Assembly: GCF_008727755.1 (NCBI RefSeq)
Contig: NZ_CP044231.1
Span: 1,984,001 to 2,048,000 of the forward strand
Source of the DNA: Microbacterium caowuchunii
Lineage (GTDB): Bacteria > Actinomycetota > Actinomycetes > Actinomycetales > Microbacteriaceae
Length of the DNA stretch: 64,000 nucleotides
Reading direction: 5' to 3'
Below are positions 31,367 through 44,644 of this stretch, piece by piece. The position numbers and the translations under genes are program-made. Positions within the stretch are counted from its first letter, which is position 1. Each line of letters opens with the position of its first letter. The notes beneath the pieces are model-generated. The model was not told where the DNA came from. It saw nothing but the letters and a program-made list of their open reading frames with translations, and did no database searches.

Positions 31367-32515
31367 ATGAACGCACCCCCCGCACACCGCCCCGCCGCCG
31401 TCGCGGCCGCCGCCGTTGTCGCGCTGCTGAGCGGCTGCGCCGGAGCGCCGGAGCAGCGGACGACGGAGCCCTCGATCCCCCCGCCCCTCTCCTCGCCGAG
31501 CGGTCCGGCGACTCTCGCCGTGCCCGGCGAGCCGACGGAGATCACCGCCGGTCTGGAAGCGCCGTGGGGCCTGACCTTCCTCCCCGACGGTTCGGCACTC
31601 GTCTCGGAACGCATCTCGGGCGAGATCCTGCGCATCCCCGCGGCGGGCGGCGACGCACGGACGGTCGGCGTCGTCCCCGACGTCGAGGTCTCCTCGGAGG
31701 GCGGACTGCTCGGCATCGTGGCCTCGCCGGAGTTCGCCGAGGACCGCACGGTCTTCGCCTCCGTCTCCGGCAGGGAGCAGAACCGGGTGGTGGCGCTGAC
31801 CCTCGCCGAGGACTTCGGCTCGCTCGAAGTGGACCGGGTGCTCCTCGACGGCATCCAGACCGCCGACCGTCACCACGGCGGCCGGCTCGCCATAGGCCCC
31901 GACGGAAACCTGTGGATCGGCACGGGCGACGCCTTCGAACCGGAGAACGCCGCGACCGACGACTCCCTCAACGGGAAGATCCTCCGCATCCGCCTCGACG
32001 GATCCGTGCCCGAGGACAACCCGGGCGGCACCCCCGTCTACTCCCGCGGCCACCGGAACGTGCAGGGCATCGCCTTCGGCCCGGACGGCACCGCCTACGC
32101 CTCCGAACTCGGCCACCGCACCTGGGACGAGGTCAACGTCCTCCTCCCCGGCCTCGACTACGGCTGGCCGGAGAGCGAAGGCACCGCGGGGAGCACCGGC
32201 GAGGCTCCGATCGCCGTACTGCACCCGGACGAGGCCAGCCCATCCGGTCTCGCGTACAGCTCGGGGTCGTTGTGGATCGGCGCCCTCGGTGGTCAGCGCC
32301 TCTGGCAACTGCCTGTGGCCGGCGATGCCGCGACGGGCGACCCGATCCCCCACTTCGTGGGTGACCACGGCCGGATCCGGACGGTGGAGGTCGCCCCCGA
32401 CGGATCATTGTGGGTCATCACCTCCAACACCGACCGCGCCACCTGGGGCGGCACCGCGCCCCGCCCCGGCGACGATCGGATCCTCCGCGTCCCGGTCGGC
32501 GCACCCTCCGGGTAG
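31367..32515 (+). CDS. PQQ-dependent sugar (aldose) dehydrogenase-like lipoprotein
   Basis: A 382-aa secreted lipoprotein. The signal ends in a lipobox LLSGC (Cys24), followed by a Pro/Ser linker and a six-bladed propeller of the glucose/sorbosone dehydrogenase family ([77 protein letters not shown]). The HH, RGHRN and DYGWP residues are those near the cofactor in soluble aldose dehydrogenases. It should oxidise sugars at the outer face of the membrane if PQQ is available; no PQQ synthesis genes are in the window. Confidence 0.9.
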
Positions 32516-32694
32516 CCCGCTCCTGGCAACCCGGAGGGCTTCGACCGTACACACGTCGTGGATACGCAGCCCGCTCGCCGCACGCCCCCCGCCGCCGGTT
32601 AGGCAATCGTCACCGACGCGAAGCCGCCGATGACGGTGCCATCGTGGCGATACGCCCCAGAAGCGGGACACGTCCGAGAAGGAAGGAACGAGCG

Positions 32695-32850
32695 ATGAGC
32701 ACGCAGACGACCGCGAGACCCGCCGGGAACATCCCCGAACCGCACGACGACCGAGGAGGAGACCACCCCGCCGGTGCGGGCATCAGCCTGGCCGCGGCGC
32801 TCAGCGCCACGTTGGCATGCGCCGGAGGGCACGCCTCGGCGGATCACTGA
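32695..32850 (+). CDS. 51-aa protein upstream of merR
   Basis: Small ORF from ATG 32695, well supplied by GGAAGGAA. The product begins MSTQTTARPAGNIPEPHDDR and ends ISLAAALSATLACAGGHASADH, with a weakly hydrophobic C-terminal third. No family is recognised. It lies 51 bp upstream of the MerR gene on the same strand and may be co-transcribed with it. Confidence 0.55.
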   Translation: MSTQTTARPAGNIPEPHDDRGGDHPAGAGISLAAALSATLACAGGHASADH

Positions 32851-32901
32851 CGTCCAGCGTCGGTGCGTTGCGCGCCGACGTCGAGAGAGGAGGACCCGTC
32901 C

Positions 32902-33669
32902 ATGGCATGGAGCACCCGGGAGCTGGCCGAGCTGGCCGGCACGACCGTGAACACGATCCGGCACTATCACCGGCTCGGCCTGCTCGAAGAGCCCGAGCGC
33001 AGGTACAACGGTTACAAGAAGTACGGCGTCTCTCACCTCGTCTGCCTGCTGCGGATCCGGCGACTGGCCGATCTCGGCGTTCCGCTCGCGCAGGTGGGAC
33101 CGCTGCGTGCGGACGACCGGAGCATGCCGGACCAGCTGCGGGCGCTGGATGCGGAGCTGGCGGCGAGCATGGAACGACTGCAGCGTGCCCGTACGGACAT
33201 CGCGGCGATCCTGCACGACCATGCGCCGGCCGACGCGCCGGCGGGATTCGCCTCCGTCGCGTCACGCCTGTCCGAATCGGACAGTTCCATCATCCACATC
33301 TACTCGCAGCTGTACGACGCGGACGTCATGGCGGATCTGCGGCGCATGGTGGAGGTGGATGCCGGGGCCGGCGCCCTCGGCGACGAGATCACCGCGCTCA
33401 CCCCTGACGCGGACGAGACGACCAGACAGCGCCTCGCCGAGCGGCTGGCGCCCACCCTCGCGCAGAACCTGATCGAGTACCCGTGGCTCTCCGACCCGAC
33501 CGGGCACCTCGCCACGAGCGAGAACGTGGCACGACAGACGTTCACCGAAGCGGTGCTCGAGCTGTACAACCCGGCCCAGATCGATGTGCTCACCCGCGCG
33601 GGGATCCTCGCTCACGAGCGCCTGCGGGCGCACGAATCGACCGGCGTGAAGCCCGGCCCGGGGTCCTGA
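32902..33669 (+). CDS. MerR-family transcriptional regulator
   Basis: A 255-aa regulator. The MerR helix-turn-helix is at the N-terminus (MAWSTRELAELAGTTVNTIR, HYHRLGLLEEPERRYNGYKK, YGVSHLVCLLRIRRLADLG), followed by a dimerisation helix (DQLRALDAELAASMERLQRA) and a 150-residue helical C-terminal domain that is not a known metal site (no Cys cluster). This suggests sensing of an organic ligand or antibiotic, as in TipA-like proteins. GAGAGAGGAGGA precedes ATG 32902. Three nearby promoters carry the same MerR-style operator, so it is probably their activator. Confidence 0.9.
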   Translation: MAWSTRELAELAGTTVNTIRHYHRLGLLEEPERRYNGYKKYGVSHLVCLLRIRRLADLGVPLAQVGPLRADDRSMPDQLRALDAELAASMERLQRARTDIAAILHDHAPADAPAGFASVASRLSESDSSIIHIYSQLYDADVMADLRRMVEVDAGAGALGDEITALTPDADETTRQRLAERLAPTLAQNLIEYPWLSDPTGHLATSENVARQTFTEAVLELYNPAQIDVLTRAGILAHERLRAHESTGVKPGPGS

Positions 33670-33679
33670 GCAGCACCGC

Positions 33680-33710
33680 TTGACTCTGTTCCGAGAACAC
33701 GGTTTCTACT
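33680..33710 (+). promoter_or_regulatory. MerR-type promoter 1 (TTGACT-N19-TCTACT)
   Basis: -35 TTGACT at 33680-33685 and -10 TCTACT at 33705-33710 are 19 bp apart, the overlong spacer of MerR-activated promoters. The dyad ACTCTGT-N7-ACACGGT (33683-33703) lies inside it. It reads into the small-multidrug-export-family gene at 33767. Confidence 0.7.
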
Positions 33711-33766
33711 GAGGTTCACCGCCGGATTCGACCGAACCCGACCCGTCCGAAAGGGAGACCCTCATC

Positions 33767-34351
33767 ATGAATCCGTTCCAGGACCTCGTCCTGAACCTCC
33801 AGGCGCTCGCCGCCCAGGTGCCGGAGCTCGTCCAACCCCTGATCGTCATGCTCGCCGGCGCGGTCCCCTTCCTCGAGGGAGAAGCCGGGTCCGCGATCGG
33901 CATGATCGCCGGTCTCCATCCCGTGGTGGCCGGAGTCGCTGCAGCCGCGGGCAACTTCCTCAGCGTGCTGTTCGTGGTGATGCTCACCTCGCGCGCCCGC
34001 ACGGCCGTCGTGAACCGGGACAGAACCCGAGTGGGCGCGACCGTAGGCGCCGGGGGGTCCTCGGCATCCGATCACGACGAGACCGACGCCGCGTTCGAGC
34101 AGATCGTCTCGGCCAAGCCCGAGTCGAAGGGCCGGCAGCGCTTCAAGCGGTGGCTCGTCCGCTTCGGGGTGCCCGGAGCGAGCATCCTCGGCCCGGCGGC
34201 CATCCCGACGCAGTTCACCTCGGCGATACTCGTCGGCGCCGGCACCCCGCGCGGGTGGGTTCTGCTGTGGCAGGCGGTGGCGATCGTGATCTGGACGACC
34301 CTCGCCACCGTGTCCATCTGGGCCGCGCTCACCTTCGTCGTCGGAGTATGA
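33767..34351 (+). CDS. Small multi-drug export family membrane protein
   Basis: A 194-aa polytopic membrane protein like the Sm_multidrug_ex family (PF06695), with the family's VMLAGAVPFLEGEAGSAIGM helix-loop near the start, two further hydrophobic helices and a conserved FGVPGASILGPAAIPTQFTS segment. A cytoplasmic loop of charged residues separates the halves. The family was named for a suspected transport role, but evidence is thin. It has AAGGGAG upstream of ATG 33767, follows MerR promoter 1, and is 19 bp from the next gene. Confidence 0.82.
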   Translation: MNPFQDLVLNLQALAAQVPELVQPLIVMLAGAVPFLEGEAGSAIGMIAGLHPVVAGVAAAAGNFLSVLFVVMLTSRARTAVVNRDRTRVGATVGAGGSSASDHDETDAAFEQIVSAKPESKGRQRFKRWLVRFGVPGASILGPAAIPTQFTSAILVGAGTPRGWVLLWQAVAIVIWTTLATVSIWAALTFVVGV

Positions 34352-34370
34352 GGAACCGGGAGACGAACCA

Positions 34371-35012
34371 GTGACCCGACCGGAGACCGCGAAGCCAGGA
34401 GACGGGCATCGGCTACCGCCCTATCGCCCGTGGCAGCTGATCTCGCGCTCCCTGTTCCATCTGCGCCTCACGGGCGGGGACGGCGCCGTACAGACCTGGT
34501 CCGTCGATGTCCGGCACGGCGGCGATCCGGACGGGGAGGTGCGCGCCCGGCTGTACCGGGACGGGGCGCACCAGGCGACGATGAAGCTCCCCGCCACGTT
34601 CCCCGTGCCGGGCGGGAGGATCGAGGTCGTGGGCAGCACCTATGGTCTGAAGCGCTGTCATTACGTGCGCGACGACGGGTCGGCGCGGCAGCTGACGCCC
34701 GACCCGTCGTCGGGCGAAGGGCGCCGTGCCCGCCTGGACCGGACGAGGCCCGCACTCAGCCGTTCCCTCAGCATCGCGTCCGTGAGCATCCTCGTCGTCG
34801 CCGCGGTTCTGGGCGTGCCGCAGATCATCGAGCAGATCACTCTGATCCCGCCCATCGCGGAGCACATCGGCACCTTCTCCACGCCGTTCTCGCTTCCGGC
34901 CTGGGCGAACATCTCGCTCGTGCTGGCTGCGCTCGCGGCCAGCACCGAACGCGCGCTCCGCCTCCGGTACAACTGGATCCTCGACGGCGGGCTGTTCGAC
35001 GGCGGCGACTGA
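34371..35012 (+). CDS. Two-helix membrane protein of unknown function
   Basis: A 213-aa protein starting at GTG 34371 (GGGAG upstream). The first ~130 residues are a soluble, beta-rich region (WQLISRSLFHLRLTGGDG, VRARLYRDGAHQATMKLPAT, IEVVGSTYGLKRCHYVRDDG). Two transmembrane helices follow (SIASVSILVVAAVLGVPQII, ANISLVLAALAASTERAL). No family is recognised. It is in an operon with the small multi-drug export family protein and presumably under the same MerR control. Confidence 0.8.
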   Translation: MTRPETAKPGDGHRLPPYRPWQLISRSLFHLRLTGGDGAVQTWSVDVRHGGDPDGEVRARLYRDGAHQATMKLPATFPVPGGRIEVVGSTYGLKRCHYVRDDGSARQLTPDPSSGEGRRARLDRTRPALSRSLSIASVSILVVAAVLGVPQIIEQITLIPPIAEHIGTFSTPFSLPAWANISLVLAALAASTERALRLRYNWILDGGLFDGGD

Positions 35013-35068
35013 TCCGACCGGGGCCGAGCGACACTCGACGGACGTTCCACCCGGCATCCGGTTCGCCG

Positions 35069-35503
35069 TCATCGGGCCGGCGACTGCTCCGCCTCGCCAG
35101 GATTGTTCGGCGTCCAGCCGAACCATCCGTCCGCCGAGGGGATGACGCTCCACGTCCCGCAGGCGAAGACGGTGTCGGCTTTGTACGCGTCCGGCGCGTC
35201 GTCGACCGCATAGCTCAGCGCGGACTGCCGGGGAACTTCGACGCACATGTCGGGATCCAGCGCCTGCGTGCTGGTCAGCAGCACCGCCGCATCGACGGCG
35301 TCCGGCACGGTCGTCCGCGTGACCCGGATGTCGCCGGCGTCGCCCGGCACCCACGGCGCGTCCACCCCGCTGTCGGCGAGCGCCGTCCTGGTGTCGAACG
35401 TCGCCGACTGCCGCTTGTAGGCGACCTGGTCGATGACGGCGCACCCGGCGAGGAGGCTTCCGAAGGCGAGCATGCCGGTCGTGGCGAGGGCGAGTGAGGC
35501 CAT
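35069..35503 (-). CDS. Putative lipoprotein
   Basis: A 144-aa secreted protein. The N-terminal signal ends in LLAGC, a lipobox placing the acylated Cys at position 21. The mature part has two further Cys (DPDMCVEVP and VFACGTW) that could form a disulfide. No family is recognised. It is convergent with the operon ending at 35012 and divergent from the fusion oxidoreductase at 35655. Confidence 0.75.
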   Translation of the reverse strand: MASLALATTGMLAFGSLLAGCAVIDQVAYKRQSATFDTRTALADSGVDAPWVPGDAGDIRVTRTTVPDAVDAAVLLTSTQALDPDMCVEVPRQSALSYAVDDAPDAYKADTVFACGTWSVIPSADGWFGWTPNNPGEAEQSPAR

Positions 35504-35576
35504 ACGTGTCTCGACTCGACCTCACCCGGGTGGTCAGGAGGTTCTGCGCGAGCGTCCGCGCCGACGCTCCGGATCC

Positions 35577-35607
35577 TTGACCATGTGCCCACAACAGGGT
35601 GTCTGCT
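35577..35607 (+). promoter_or_regulatory. MerR-type promoter 2 (TTGACC-N19-TCTGCT)
   Basis: -35 TTGACC 35577-35582 and -10 TCTGCT 35602-35607 with a 19-bp spacer containing ACCATGT-N7-ACAGGGT (35580-35600). It reads into the LLM/FAD fusion gene, whose ATG is 48 bp past the -10. Confidence 0.7.
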
Positions 35608-35654
35608 GGGATTGCCTCGCATCTCCGCAGGCCAGGAACCAAGGAGTCCGGCAC

Positions 35655-37859
35655 ATGGATTACGGTCATGCCCTGGAGTTCGGCGTCTTCATCACGCCGA
35701 CCAACACGCAACCCCAGGCGCCGGTGGCGTTGGCCCAGCTGAGCGAGCAGCTCGGCTTCGACCTCGTGACGTTCCAGGACCATCCCTATCAGCCGCGATT
35801 CCTGGACACGTGGACGCTGCTGTCCTACGCCGCGGCAGCGACGTCGACGATCCGGCTGGCGCCGAACGTCCTCAACCTGCCCTTGCGGCCGCCGGCCGTG
35901 CTCGCCCGCGCGGCGGCGTCACTCGACCTGCTCTCCGGTGGGCGGTTCGACCTGGCCCTGGGCGCGGGAGCGTTCTGGGACGCCATCGAGGCGATGGGAG
36001 TGCCGCGCTTGACCCCCGGGCAGTCCGTGGAAGCGCTCGAGGAGGCGATCGATCTCATCCGCGGTATCTGGGATCCCGACGAGCGCGGACCGCTGCCGAC
36101 CGGCGACCACTACCCGGTGACGGGGGCCAAGAGAGGACCCGCCCCGGCACACGACATCCCGATCTGGATCGGTGCGCTCAAGCCGAGGATGCTGCGCCTC
36201 ACCGGGAGGAAGGCCGACGGCTGGCTCCCCAGCCTCGGCAACCTCCAGCCCGCCGAGATCCGTTCCCAGCAGGAGCGGATCGACGATGCCGCACGCGGCG
36301 TCGGACGGAACCCGGCCGAGGTGCGACGCCTGCTGAACGTCCCCTACGGCACGGAGGCGGAGCGGCTCGCCGAACTCGCGCTCACCCATGGCTTCTCCAC
36401 CTTCATCGTGGTCTCCGACGATCCGAACGCGCTCAGCCGGTTCGCCCAGGAGACCGCCCCGATGGTCCGCGGACTGGTCGAGGCGGAGCGGGCGCGGCGA
36501 GGCACGGCCGCTCCGGGACGATCATCGCGCGCACTGGCCGCGCGGCGTGAGGGCATCGCCTACGACGAGGTGCCGGCATCCCTCAGGGACACGACGATCG
36601 AGCCGGGCGACTTCGCCTACCGAGCGGTGCGGTCCACGTACCTGCGCGGCGGCACACCCGGAATCGTCCTCCGTCCCGAAGACACCGCCGGTGTGCAGGA
36701 CGCGGTCGCCTTCGCCCGCGCGCACCGGCATCTACCTCTGGGCGTCCGCAGCGGCGGGCACGGCGTCAGCGGCCGCAGCACGAACGACGGCGGGCTCGTC
36801 ATCGACCTCGGCGCGCTCCGGGACATCGAGATCCTCGACGAACGGCGACGGTTGGTGCGTGTCGGTCCGGGAGCCCGCTGGCAGGACGTCGCGCGTGCAC
36901 TGGAACCGCACGGGTGGGCCATCACGAGCGGCGACTACGGGGGCGTCGGCGTGGGCGGGCTCGCCACCGCGGGCGGCATCGGATTCCTCGGCCGCGAACA
37001 CGGACTGACCATCGACCAGATGGTCGCCGCCGAGATCGTCCTGGCCGACGGCACGCTCGTGCGCGCCACGGAGGACGAGAACCCGGAGCTGTTCTGGGCC
37101 GTGCGCGGCGCAGGCGCCAACATCGGGATCGTCGTCTCCTTGGAGTTCCAGGCGACACCGGTCGGGAAGGTCGCGTGGGTCCAGCTGGTCTTCGACGCCT
37201 CGGATGCGGCATCCCTCCTCCAGCGATACGCCGCGGCGACGGAGGACTCCCCCCGCGACACGACGCTGTTCCTCATCGCCGGTACAAGCCGCGCCGCGAC
37301 CACCCCGGTCGCGCGACTGTACGGCGTGATCGATTCGGCGGACACGTCGGTCATCATCGAGCGGCTCCAGCCGTTCCTCACCATCGCCCCGCTGCTGGAC
37401 CAGTCCGTGCAGCTCGGCTCGTATGCCGACGTCATCTCCAACGCGCCCGACACCTCCCACGATGGGCGGGGCGAACCCGGTTTCCGCTCCGGCCTTCTGG
37501 ACGAGCTCGGCCCGGAGACGGCGGGAATCGCGGCAGAGCTGCTGCTCTCCGGGAGCACGCCCTGGTTCCAGCTCCGTCCGGTCGGCGGTGCCATCGCGGA
37601 CATCGCCCCGGAGGCGACCGCCTACGCGCATCGCCACGCCCGGTACTCCGTCACGGCGGTGGGCCGATCCGCGTCTTTCGATGAGCTGTGGGCGCGCCTC
37701 GAGGAGAGGTTCGCCGGCCTCTATCTCAGCTTCGAGTCACGCACCGGACCCGACATCGTGGCGCGGGCCTTCCCGCCCGCCACCCTGGAACGACTTCGCA
37801 CGATCAAGGAGCGGCGCGACCCCGAGGGCCTCTTCCGCGACAACTTCCCGGTCCGGTAG
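35655..37859 (+). CDS. Fusion of LLM flavin monooxygenase and FAD-linked (BBE-type) oxidase
   Basis: A 734-aa two-enzyme fusion. Residues 1-285 are a luciferase-like (LLM) flavin- or F420-dependent oxidoreductase (LEFGVFITPTNTQPQAPVAL, GFDLVTFQDHPYQPRF, LDLLSGGRFDLALGAG, PIWIGALKPRMLRLTGRKAD). From about 325 to the end is a PCMH/berberine-bridge-type FAD domain: GVRSGGHGVSGRS with H369 as the likely 8-alpha-histidyl FAD link, GGVGVGGLATAGGIGFLG, and the C-terminal ERRDPEGLFRDNFPV. The position where bicovalent enzymes have a 6-S-cysteinyl Cys is Asp/Tyr here, so attachment would be through the His only. It starts at ATG 35655 with AAGGAG, just after MerR promoter 2. Confidence 0.9.
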   Translation: MDYGHALEFGVFITPTNTQPQAPVALAQLSEQLGFDLVTFQDHPYQPRFLDTWTLLSYAAAATSTIRLAPNVLNLPLRPPAVLARAAASLDLLSGGRFDLALGAGAFWDAIEAMGVPRLTPGQSVEALEEAIDLIRGIWDPDERGPLPTGDHYPVTGAKRGPAPAHDIPIWIGALKPRMLRLTGRKADGWLPSLGNLQPAEIRSQQERIDDAARGVGRNPAEVRRLLNVPYGTEAERLAELALTHGFSTFIVVSDDPNALSRFAQETAPMVRGLVEAERARRGTAAPGRSSRALAARREGIAYDEVPASLRDTTIEPGDFAYRAVRSTYLRGGTPGIVLRPEDTAGVQDAVAFARAHRHLPLGVRSGGHGVSGRSTNDGGLVIDLGALRDIEILDERRRLVRVGPGARWQDVARALEPHGWAITSGDYGGVGVGGLATAGGIGFLGREHGLTIDQMVAAEIVLADGTLVRATEDENPELFWAVRGAGANIGIVVSLEFQATPVGKVAWVQLVFDASDAASLLQRYAAATEDSPRDTTLFLIAGTSRAATTPVARLYGVIDSADTSVIIERLQPFLTIAPLLDQSVQLGSYADVISNAPDTSHDGRGEPGFRSGLLDELGPETAGIAAELLLSGSTPWFQLRPVGGAIADIAPEATAYAHRHARYSVTAVGRSASFDELWARLEERFAGLYLSFESRTGPDIVARAFPPATLERLRTIKERRDPEGLFRDNFPVR

Positions 37860-37881
37860 ACGCGTATGCCGGGTCCACGGC

Positions 37882-37912
37882 TTGACCCGGTGCCGACCAC
37901 ACGGTTTTGGAT
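37882..37912 (+). promoter_or_regulatory. MerR-type promoter 3 (TTGACC-N19-TTGGAT)
   Basis: -35 TTGACC 37882-37887 and -10 TTGGAT 37907-37912, 19-bp spacer with ACCCGGT-N7-ACACGGT (37885-37905). It reads into the alpha/beta hydrolase gene at 38000. Confidence 0.68.
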
Positions 37913-37999: not shown

Positions 38000-38977
38000 A
38001 TGGCACGTGTCCATCATCGGTCGATCGACATCGACGGCCTCACGGTCTTCTACCGCGAAGCGGGAGCACGGGAGGCGCCGGCTCTGGTCCTCCTGCACGG
38101 GTACCCGACGAGTTCCCACATGTTCCGTCACCTCATGCCGAGGCTCGCCGAGAGATTCCACGTCATCGCCCCGGACCACATCGGCTTCGGGTTCTCGTCC
38201 GCTCCGCCGGTCGACGAGTTCGACTACACCTTCGACGCGCTCGCGGAGGTGACGCGCACCCTGCTCGCCCGTCTCGGGGTGACGCGGTACGCCATCTACG
38301 TCCAGGATTACGGCGCGCCCATCGGCTGGCGTCTCGCTCTCGCCGACCCGGGCGCGATCGTCGGCGTGATCTCGCAGAACGGGAACGCCTACGAGGAGGG
38401 GTTCGTCCCCGCGTTCTGGGCGCCGATCTGGACCCATGCGGAGCAGCGCAACGCTGCGAGCGAGGCCGCGCTGCTGCCGGCCCTCGGCAGGGAGGCCGTC
38501 GAATGGCAGTACACGCACGGTGAGCCGGATGTCTCCCTCGTCGATCCGGATGCGTGGGAGCACGACCTCGCGCTCCTCGCGCGCCCCGGTGTCCCTGCCG
38601 CGCAACTCGCCCTGTTCGCGGACTACGGCACGAACCCTCCTCTCTATCCGAAGGTCCACGACTGGCTCCGTGAGAGGGAGGTGCCCGTGCTGGCCGTCTG
38701 GGGGCGCAACGACGAGATCTTCGCCCCGGCAGGGGCGTCGGCCTTCGCGAAGGACAGCCCCGCAGCCGACGTCGTCCTCCTCGACGGTGGTCACTTCGCC
38801 CTGGAGACGCACCTCGACGAGGTGACCGAGGCGATCCTGATGTGGGCGGACCGGCACAGCCTCGGATCCCCCGCGTCGCGGATCCGGCTTCCCGCCCGTG
38901 ATGCGACAGGCGCCGCGACAGCCCCTGCCGTCCCCGTCAAGGGCACGGTGGACCAGGGTGCCGCGCTGCTATCGTGA
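38000..38977 (+). CDS. Alpha/beta hydrolase with Asp nucleophile (epoxide hydrolase/dehalogenase-like)
   Basis: A 325-aa alpha/beta hydrolase. HGYP (residues 33-36) is the oxyanion motif; the nucleophile elbow is VQDYGAP with D103, as in haloalkane dehalogenases and epoxide hydrolases, rather than a serine. The acid is in GRNDEIF and the base His in DGGHFALETH. The last ~35 residues are an extra Ala/Pro-rich tail. It would open epoxides or remove halides, perhaps from a xenobiotic. CAGGAG precedes ATG 38000, and MerR promoter 3 lies upstream. Confidence 0.9.
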   Translation: MARVHHRSIDIDGLTVFYREAGAREAPALVLLHGYPTSSHMFRHLMPRLAERFHVIAPDHIGFGFSSAPPVDEFDYTFDALAEVTRTLLARLGVTRYAIYVQDYGAPIGWRLALADPGAIVGVISQNGNAYEEGFVPAFWAPIWTHAEQRNAASEAALLPALGREAVEWQYTHGEPDVSLVDPDAWEHDLALLARPGVPAAQLALFADYGTNPPLYPKVHDWLREREVPVLAVWGRNDEIFAPAGASAFAKDSPAADVVLLDGGHFALETHLDEVTEAILMWADRHSLGSPASRIRLPARDATGAATAPAVPVKGTVDQGAALLS

Positions 38978-43738: not shown

Positions 43739-44644
43739 CTAGGTGCGACGCTCGCTGAGCTGTTTCGGTTGCCATGCAGCGAGTTTGTCGGGGCTCATGG
43801 CGAAGTAGATGCCGCGGATCTTCCCCGAAGCGATGTGGAACGAGATGACGCCGAGCACGTCACGGCGTCCCTTCCGCTTGGTTCGAACGAGGGCGAATCC
43901 GGGGGCGTCGTTCACCACTGTGCGCTCGATCACCACGCCACGCATCGGGCGGCGCAGGATGCCGAGGAGGAAGGGCGCGACCTTCACAGCCCCGACCACC
44001 GGCTGGCGCGCGATGCCGATCCTGCCGTTTCCGTCGCTGATCGAGGTCACCTGCGGATCGAGCACCGCGATCAACCCGGCCAGGTCGCCGTGCTCGCATG
44101 CCTCCTGGAACGCATCCACGAGCCGTGAGTGCTCACCGGGATCCGAAGGACGGTATCGCCCGTCGTCGAGGTGTCTCCGCGCTGAGACCGCCGCTTGGCG
44201 CACCGCAGCGGGCGTGCGCCCGACGATTTCTGCGATCTCGGCATACGGCACCCCGAAGGCTTCGTGCAGCACGTAGGTGACGCGCTCCGCGGGGGTGAGC
44301 GATTCCAGCGCGACCAAGAGCGCCATACTCACCGAGTCGTCACGCGTGACGCGATCCAACGGTTCGACGCCCGACGTCGCATAAGCCGGGATCGGTTCGG
44401 GAAGCCACGGGCCGACGTATCGTTCCCGCCGCATCGGCGCAGAGCCGAGCAGGTTCAGACACAGGCGGGACGCGGCCGTGGTGAACCACGCGGCAGGGTT
44501 CTCGATCCGCTCACGCTCTACGGGGTCGAGCCGATACCAGCGTTCGAAGCTCTGCTGAACGATGTCCTCGGCATCGTTCCAGCTACCGAGCATGCGGTAT
44601 GCGAGCCGCATCAACCGCACTCGTTCGCTTTCGACGTCGACCAT
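43739..44644 (-). CDS. ECF41-group RNA polymerase sigma factor (SigJ-like)
   Basis: A 301-aa extracytoplasmic-function sigma factor. Regions 2 and 4 are at the N-terminus (LMRLAYRMLGSWNDAEDIVQ, VTYVLHEAFGVPYAEIAEIV), linked by the ECF41 WLPEP signature (GPWLPEPIPAY). A SnoaL-like C-terminal extension follows, with SDGNGRIG (the DGGGK position) and YFAMSPDKLA (the NPDKL position). In ECF41 proteins this extension controls activity in place of an anti-sigma factor. The divergent FAD oxidoreductase is the expected partner, as ECF41 genes usually sit beside an oxidoreductase, epimerase or carboxymuconolactone decarboxylase. Confidence 0.92.
   Translation of the reverse strand: MVDVESERVRLMRLAYRMLGSWNDAEDIVQQSFERWYRLDPVERERIENPAAWFTTAASRLCLNLLGSAPMRRERYVGPWLPEPIPAYATSGVEPLDRVTRDDSVSMALLVALESLTPAERVTYVLHEAFGVPYAEIAEIVGRTPAAVRQAAVSARRHLDDGRYRPSDPGEHSRLVDAFQEACEHGDLAGLIAVLDPQVTSISDGNGRIGIARQPVVGAVKVAPFLLGILRRPMRGVVIERTVVNDAPGFALVRTKRKGRRDVLGVISFHIASGKIRGIYFAMSPDKLAAWQPKQLSERRT

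Follow-up and report, generated by a model that had tools for sequence, protein, structure and literature searches.

The stretch of DNA analysed here (the window: 64,000 nucleotides, positions 1984001-2048000 of the 3.26-Mb single-contig genome of Microbacterium caowuchunii) carries a gene for a MerR-family regulator of 255 amino acids (aa) at window positions 32902..33669 (+ strand) and, downstream of it on the same strand, three operator/promoter sites: 33680..33710 (TTGACT, hexamer TCTACT), 35577..35607 (TTGACC, hexamer TCTGCT) and 37882..37912 (TTGACC, hexamer TTGGAT). Each has a 19-bp spacer that contains a dyad. Site 1 is followed by genes for a membrane protein of 194 aa (33767..34351, +) and a partner protein of 213 aa without Pfam family (34371..35012, +), site 2 by a gene for a 734-aa fusion of a luciferase-like monooxygenase (PF00296) with an FAD-binding oxidase (PF01565) (35655..37859, +), and site 3 by a gene for a 325-aa alpha/beta hydrolase (38000..38977, +; PF00561, 4.5e-34). 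Judged by sequence, the sites are part of a MerR-family regulon that is real and spread over actinobacteria; no description of it turned up in the literature searched, which lay mostly outside subscription journals.

Geometry of the sites and architecture of the regulator

A preliminary description of this DNA had placed TTGACY, 19 bp and a hexamer at 33680, 35577 and 37882, and these positions were borne out on the + strand, as was its count of 11 identical positions among the 19 of the spacer (counted by eye). The motif that it gave for the spacer, ACCnTGT-N7-ACAnGGT, is present at all three sites, but with 1, 0 and 1 mismatches rather than 1-3. What it called a T-rich -10 keeps T-12 and T-7 but needs a correction: the A at position -11 (A-11) is absent. 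The operator proper is the 21-bp dyad ACCnTGTTCnnnGAACAnGGT, whose start lies inside TTGAC. A pattern derived from the three sites matches the window three times (at those same sites) and 100 shuffles not once, a comparison in which the pattern is circular.

The same geometry is found when the inner dyad alone is searched for (TGTTC-N3-GAACA, one mismatch or none). Across 106 loci totalling 1.62 Mb, four of which are stretches of this genome, 138 matches were obtained, and in 98 of them TTG stands exactly 7 nucleotides before the dyad, on one side; each of 19 other offsets holds 0-9 occurrences. Among these 98 TTG-bearing sites, T occupies base 26 (spacer+1) in 96 and base 31 (spacer+6) in 97. 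Since no promoter letters were asked for, the 19-bp spacer and the edges of the -10 hexamer emerge from the data and are not imposed. By sequence, the sites thus have a dyad at a fixed distance within a 19-20-bp spacer, as MerR targets do.

The regulator encoded at 32902 matches PF13411 (9.7e-13, above the cut-off), as do all 27 relatives scanned. It has the W-S-T-type N-terminus of its subfamily, whose members start with M-x-W-S-T, and an asparagine at position 17, within the recognition helix. The AlphaFold model (mean predicted local distance difference test score, pLDDT, 87.9; predicted template modelling score, pTM, 0.66) comprises a MerR N-terminus, a long helix at residues 75-105 and helices across residues 117-247. 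A winged-helix N-terminus followed by a long helix of the dimerisation type places the protein in the MerR family as a predicted dimer. In a fold search, chains of the MerR family matched residues 1-125, and the fold matches cover the N-terminus only. No Pfam family was found for the sensor part in the 27 members scanned, apart from a few isolated hits in one or two of them.

Sites and target genes in this and other genomes

A whole-genome search with the pattern from the three sites gave 8 matches, against 0 for the pattern read backwards, and a looser pattern gave 11 against 1 in the control. The genome has at least nine sites, and probably ten. The seven outside the window precede the following genes (genome coordinates): a second copy of the membrane protein, then GPP34 (929627, +); a GNAT acetyltransferase (925516, -); a paralogue of the regulator (1378506, -); a carboxylesterase-family gene about 280-390 bp away, by the start chosen (1378670, +); an alpha/beta hydrolase (1381746, +); a 95-aa hydrophobic protein (3229724, +); and, at a weaker site, an NAD(P)-binding protein (948719, -; PF13460), look-alikes of which in three relatives (L063, L064, L066) likewise carry a site. 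A further match of the looser pattern, at 2034129, has two mismatches and no TTGAC and was taken as chance. The paralogue (G000:C1:1377694-1378440) is 54% identical to the 32902 regulator and has Asn17 too; with a site ahead of its own gene, it contradicts the earlier view of the regulator as an orphan.

The preliminary description had proposed a scan of related genomes for the dyad next to this gene set. In 149 genomes of the genus, operator and regulator co-occur: the regulator (E up to 1e-30) is present in 22 genomes and the strict operator in 15 (0 in the reversed control), and every one of these 15 also has the regulator (Fisher p 1.2e-15, kinship not corrected for). The other seven regulator genomes have either similar, weaker sites at distances up to about 2 kb (G029, G052, G133, G142, G144) or a TGCCC variant (G083, G086). 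Beyond the genus, we scored loci with a matrix built from 23 sites (own-genome and genus matches). Of 80 loci fetched by the regulator, among the matches listed, a site scoring 20 bits or more is present in 75 and one scoring 30 bits or more in 69, the latter spanning 12 families in 6 orders. As controls, one shuffle of each locus gave no score of 12 bits or more, and the reversed loci gave one at 13.5. The claim that a MerR-type operator within 19-bp spacers belongs to this MerR subfamily is therefore upheld by adjacency, by presence and absence in the 149 genomes and by the residue-base correspondence described below.

The set of loci holds 222 sites at thresholds of 20 bits in regulator-fetched loci and 25 bits in others. 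Targets were counted from 166 distinct sites of at least 25 bits with a gene start within 260 bp, in 106 loci, leaving out L099, L129, L149 and L161, which duplicate genus contigs; genes were called by a simple codon-usage caller, which makes the starts rough, and the Pfam label of each cluster is that of one scanned member. Among the first three genes, the membrane protein appears in 48 loci (always first), GPP34 in 32 and the regulator in 26, followed by a TAP-like alpha/beta hydrolase (15), a hydrolase that we label chloroperoxidase-like (8), an ABC ATPase (7), the family of the window's partner protein (7, the window and 6 other loci), GNAT (6), a CAAX-protease-like protein (4), an NAD(P)-binding protein (3) and other small clusters. 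By these counts, the genes that the operator repeatedly precedes are those of the membrane protein, GPP34, the regulator, hydrolases and ABC ATPases. The pairing of site and regulator is found again in many soil actinobacteria and there appears to run a small membrane-protein and detoxification gene set. The putative export and detoxification regulon outlined earlier is an uncharacterised set, larger than described (9-10 sites in this genome) and widespread.

The individual products fit their earlier labels to varying degrees. The membrane protein, of a Sm_multidrug_ex/VTT-like family that is the most frequent operator target, had been called a small-multidrug-export-family protein. This holds loosely, as 12 of the 28 members scanned reach PF06695 at E values up to 0.01, but the window member has no Pfam hit, which places it outside the family at the PF06695 gathering score, and one relative reaches 22.7 bits against a cut-off of 30.7. 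Two of the 28 match VTT (PF09335), one at 28.1 bits against a cut-off of 33.9, and of 24 chains compared with the model (pLDDT 77.7) none is a clear fold match. The "epoxide-hydrolase-like" enzyme is an alpha/beta hydrolase; its best NCBIfam models (haloalkane dehalogenase) stay far under the cut-off. A relative lies behind an operator in one other locus (L109). The flavin fusion has a site upstream here, as described, but is not a recurrent target: among 30 genus loci examined, this window alone has a site within 1.5 kb. By its distribution, it looks like a recruit of this genome. The fusion enzyme itself is common. Nor is it a novel architecture, an idea we rejected on finding both domains in all of the best 120 matches listed.

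Upstream of the regulator gene lies an open reading frame (ORF) of 51 aa (32695..32850, +) without Pfam hit, counterparts of which, with a conserved SLAAAL-type end, stand directly ahead of merR in five relatives (L063, L064, L065, L066, L089). No site of 0 bits or more was found in window 32001-32960, upstream of 32902. The ORF may be outside the regulon. The element ACCGACGCGA (window 32612-32621), ahead of the small ORF, occurs once in the window and in L065 and twice in L063, L064 and L066, and is a possible operator of the merR operon. A further ORF, of 144 aa (35069-35503, -), lies between the partner gene and site 2; it is lipoprotein-like (LAGC motif, by eye) and without Pfam family.

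Residue 17 and the -10 hexamer

The regulators of the subfamily fall into two types at position 17, with Asn accompanying a TGT half-site and Lys a TGC half-site. We compiled 126 non-identical regulators (111 Asn, 15 Lys), leaving out L099, L129, L149, L161, L088, L183, L184 and L192 and also matches that span too little of the protein; the L088 regulator (37% identical) has Arg17. An operator of clear type was present within 2.5 kb in 101 cases, and the remaining 25 had no operator or no clear type. Of the 90 regulators with TGT-type operators, 89 have Asn and 1 has Lys, and the 11 with TGC-type operators all have Lys; the lone Lys/TGT case (L106_4064) shares its locus and site with an Asn-type regulator. 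The site finder required TTG, AC, the final T and symmetry, and neither TGT nor TGC, and position 17 was the best separator of operator types among positions 2-79. In a tree from which residues 16-20 were excluded, residue and operator type change three times each; independent pairs on supported branches number 2, of which on average 1.9 show the trait changing in the same direction, too few for significance.

In the class as a whole, TGCCC-type sites were found in 38 of 394 genomes (control 0). Of 30 TGCCC loci, 19 have Lys in their best MerR match and 2 have Arg; in 1 the match does not cover the residue, and in 8 no MerR was found, figures to be read knowing that the actinobacterial base rate of Lys may be high. 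TGTTC-type sites (one mismatch) occur in 7 of the 394, and 2 of the 7 loci examined show a regulator, both Asn. Lys17 regulators of a related type adjoin TGCCC-type operators (L083, L160, L169 and others), and such Lys17/TGCCC loci perhaps form a parallel regulon of their own, as far as sequence tells. In metal regulators, Korostelev et al. 2016 (PMC5045206, in its available text) pair C with K, T with E and G with D at one contact. Position 14 of that work would, by our inference, be position 17 here; if so, the contact is already known, and Asn with T is an addition to it.

The -10 hexamers have a peculiarity of their own, the absence of a base on which bacterial promoters ordinarily depend. 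In the 98 TTG-bearing sites, base 27 (the -11 position) is never A (C 47, T 30, G 21), against an A frequency of 0.22 just downstream, and with two mismatches allowed in the dyad, A is found there in 2 of 176; none of the ten sites of this genome has it. Among 92 Asn-type sites, 89 read T-N4-T without A-11, 1 reads NANNNT at a 20-bp spacer and 2 are of other kinds, and the 43 TGCCC sites at loci with this subfamily divide into 37 of the first kind, 3 NANNNT and 3 others. By contrast, all 16 sites with similar operators in 14 loci where the subfamily was not found (L203-L208, L212-L214, L217, L219-L222; a different MerR in 7, no MerR found in 7) read NANNNT, 10 of them at 19 bp and 6 at 20 bp. 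The difference between classes has a Fisher p of 3e-18, for sites that are not independent and a group that was sorted after the sites had been seen; sorting by motif search instead gave NANNNT in 16 of 21. At shifted registers, NANNNT appeared in 15 of 368 trials.

In a structural model, as given in the available text of PMC7722741 and PMC9909328, BmrR restores the delivery of A-11 into its sigma pocket. The missing A-11 may be a lock against leakage, or may point to another sigma factor. A broader idea, which we consider possible but short of probable, is that the promoters of the subfamily gave up A-11 across Actinomycetes and open without its delivery (by compensating contacts, with a different sigma factor or in a shifted register), which would be a second mode of MerR action.

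Proposed mechanism, alternatives and known systems

From the sites, their geometry, the link with the subfamily and the neighbouring genes, all of which are observed, we infer dimer binding, activation by distortion, an inducer class and a role in detoxification. A dimer of the regulator would bind the 21-bp dyad in the spacer, which at 19 bp is overlong; the sensor domain would bind an inducer, most probably a small molecule that is toxic or acts on membranes; and the inducer-bound regulator would distort the spacer so that RNA polymerase opens the promoters. In this genome, 9-10 promoters would be switched on, serving two membrane-protein copies (one with GPP34), hydrolases, the flavin fusion enzyme, the GNAT acetyltransferase, the NAD(P)-binding protein, the small hydrophobic protein and the second regulator gene. 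The regulator would most likely activate a set of genes for defence or detoxification in response to its inducer, and the reading as a whole, a subfamily dimer on a spacer dyad driving 9-10 promoters, is in our estimation highly probable.

Several points weigh against it. Forty of the 138 inner dyads have no -35, and 5 of the 80 regulator-fetched loci have no site; these 80 were chosen by the regulator and therefore say nothing on its absence, and at least 4 of them repeat genus contigs, three of which fed sites to the matrix. The flavin fusion had to be rejected as a core target: of its 35 other matches in the genus, 29 were examined, and none of these has a site. The sensor domain has no likeness to a named family, which leaves the target genes as the sole basis for the inducer class. 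Finally, the published distortion model, as far as its available text goes, relies on A-11, and we are therefore less sure that the standard polymerase is activated than that the binding site is right.

Could the sites be chance promoter likeness in GC-rich DNA? The motif is short and its -10 degenerate, but the shuffled and reversed controls and the co-occurrence with the regulator leave this next to no probability, and we rejected it. More serious is the division of labour with the paralogue, which has Asn17 and a site ahead of its own gene, when none was found upstream of 32902: the sites might be served mainly by the paralogue, or by both proteins, the role of the 32902 regulator being minor or different. 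Several genus genomes with a single regulator match (e.g. G017, G031, G067, G095, G139) nevertheless keep sites beside the regulator, and we regard this alternative as rather unlikely, although the two paralogues may share sites.

The hexamer bears on two other alternatives. An alternative sigma factor with no need for A-11 could read the promoters, with the MerR protein as co-activator, given that A-11 is absent from subfamily promoters and present in all 16 similar-operator sites where the subfamily was not found. The window does hold a gene for a sigma-70-family factor with regions 2 and 4 (43739-44644, -; PF04542, PF08281), but some 10 kb separate it from the regulator, and only 2 of the 105 other loci contain relatives of it (other sigma genes near regulators were not searched for). 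Moreover, TTGAC at -35 with T-12 and T-7 has what we take to be a housekeeping-class look, which counts against this idea, and we find it improbable. Alternatively, the regulator might be mainly a repressor seated in the spacer, expression following from release and not from distortion. With A-11 in 0 of 98 hexamers, activation through a -11A pocket is not obvious, and a MerR-type repressor, CvkR, has been described (PMC9938897, available text). The exact 19-bp spacing and the near-invariant T-12 and T-7 of the 98 sites, however, fit a spacer in need of correction, which a plain repressor does not require; a mainly repressive role thus appears quite doubtful.

Through this analysis, an anonymous MerR gene becomes a defined regulon in many actinobacterial families. 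Its operator is readable, so the inducer can be screened for by reporter. With the Asn/Lys-17 correspondence, a single residue becomes a rule by which the operators of unnamed actinobacterial MerR proteins can be predicted, and the absence of A-11 lets the accepted model of MerR transcription activation be tested directly and cheaply. Bacterial GPP34 proteins gain a regulatory context, none having turned up in the literature searched.

The metal sensors CueR, CadR and PbrR have a short metal loop in place of a long C-terminal domain; the 32902 regulator differs from them in its length of 255 aa, about 130 of which form a helical C-terminal domain, in target promoters without A-11 and in the lack of a metal pump among the targets named. 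It also stays below the equivalog cut-offs of the metal-sensor models (MerR, 43.7 against 150.85 bits; CadR-PbrR, 32.8 against 151.45; CueR, 30.3 against 147.4), and the pairs in the available text of PMC5045206 do not include Asn with T. Multidrug members of the family carry a GyrI-like sensor (PMC9909328, available text); unlike BmrR and Mta, the regulator has no GyrI-like domain detected in 27 members (E up to 0.01) or with two C-terminal parts (E up to 10), and its promoters have no A at -11, the base that the BmrR model puts in its pocket (PMC7722741, available text). With the same searches, the TipAS domain of TipA, the Streptomyces thiopeptide sensor, was not matched either. TipA has a long helical C-terminus, and its targets differ from those of the 32902 regulator. 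Both are actinobacterial, the 32902 protein too has a long helical C-terminus, and its best solved relative by profile is TipA (2vz4, E 1.6e-15, profile positions 3-106).

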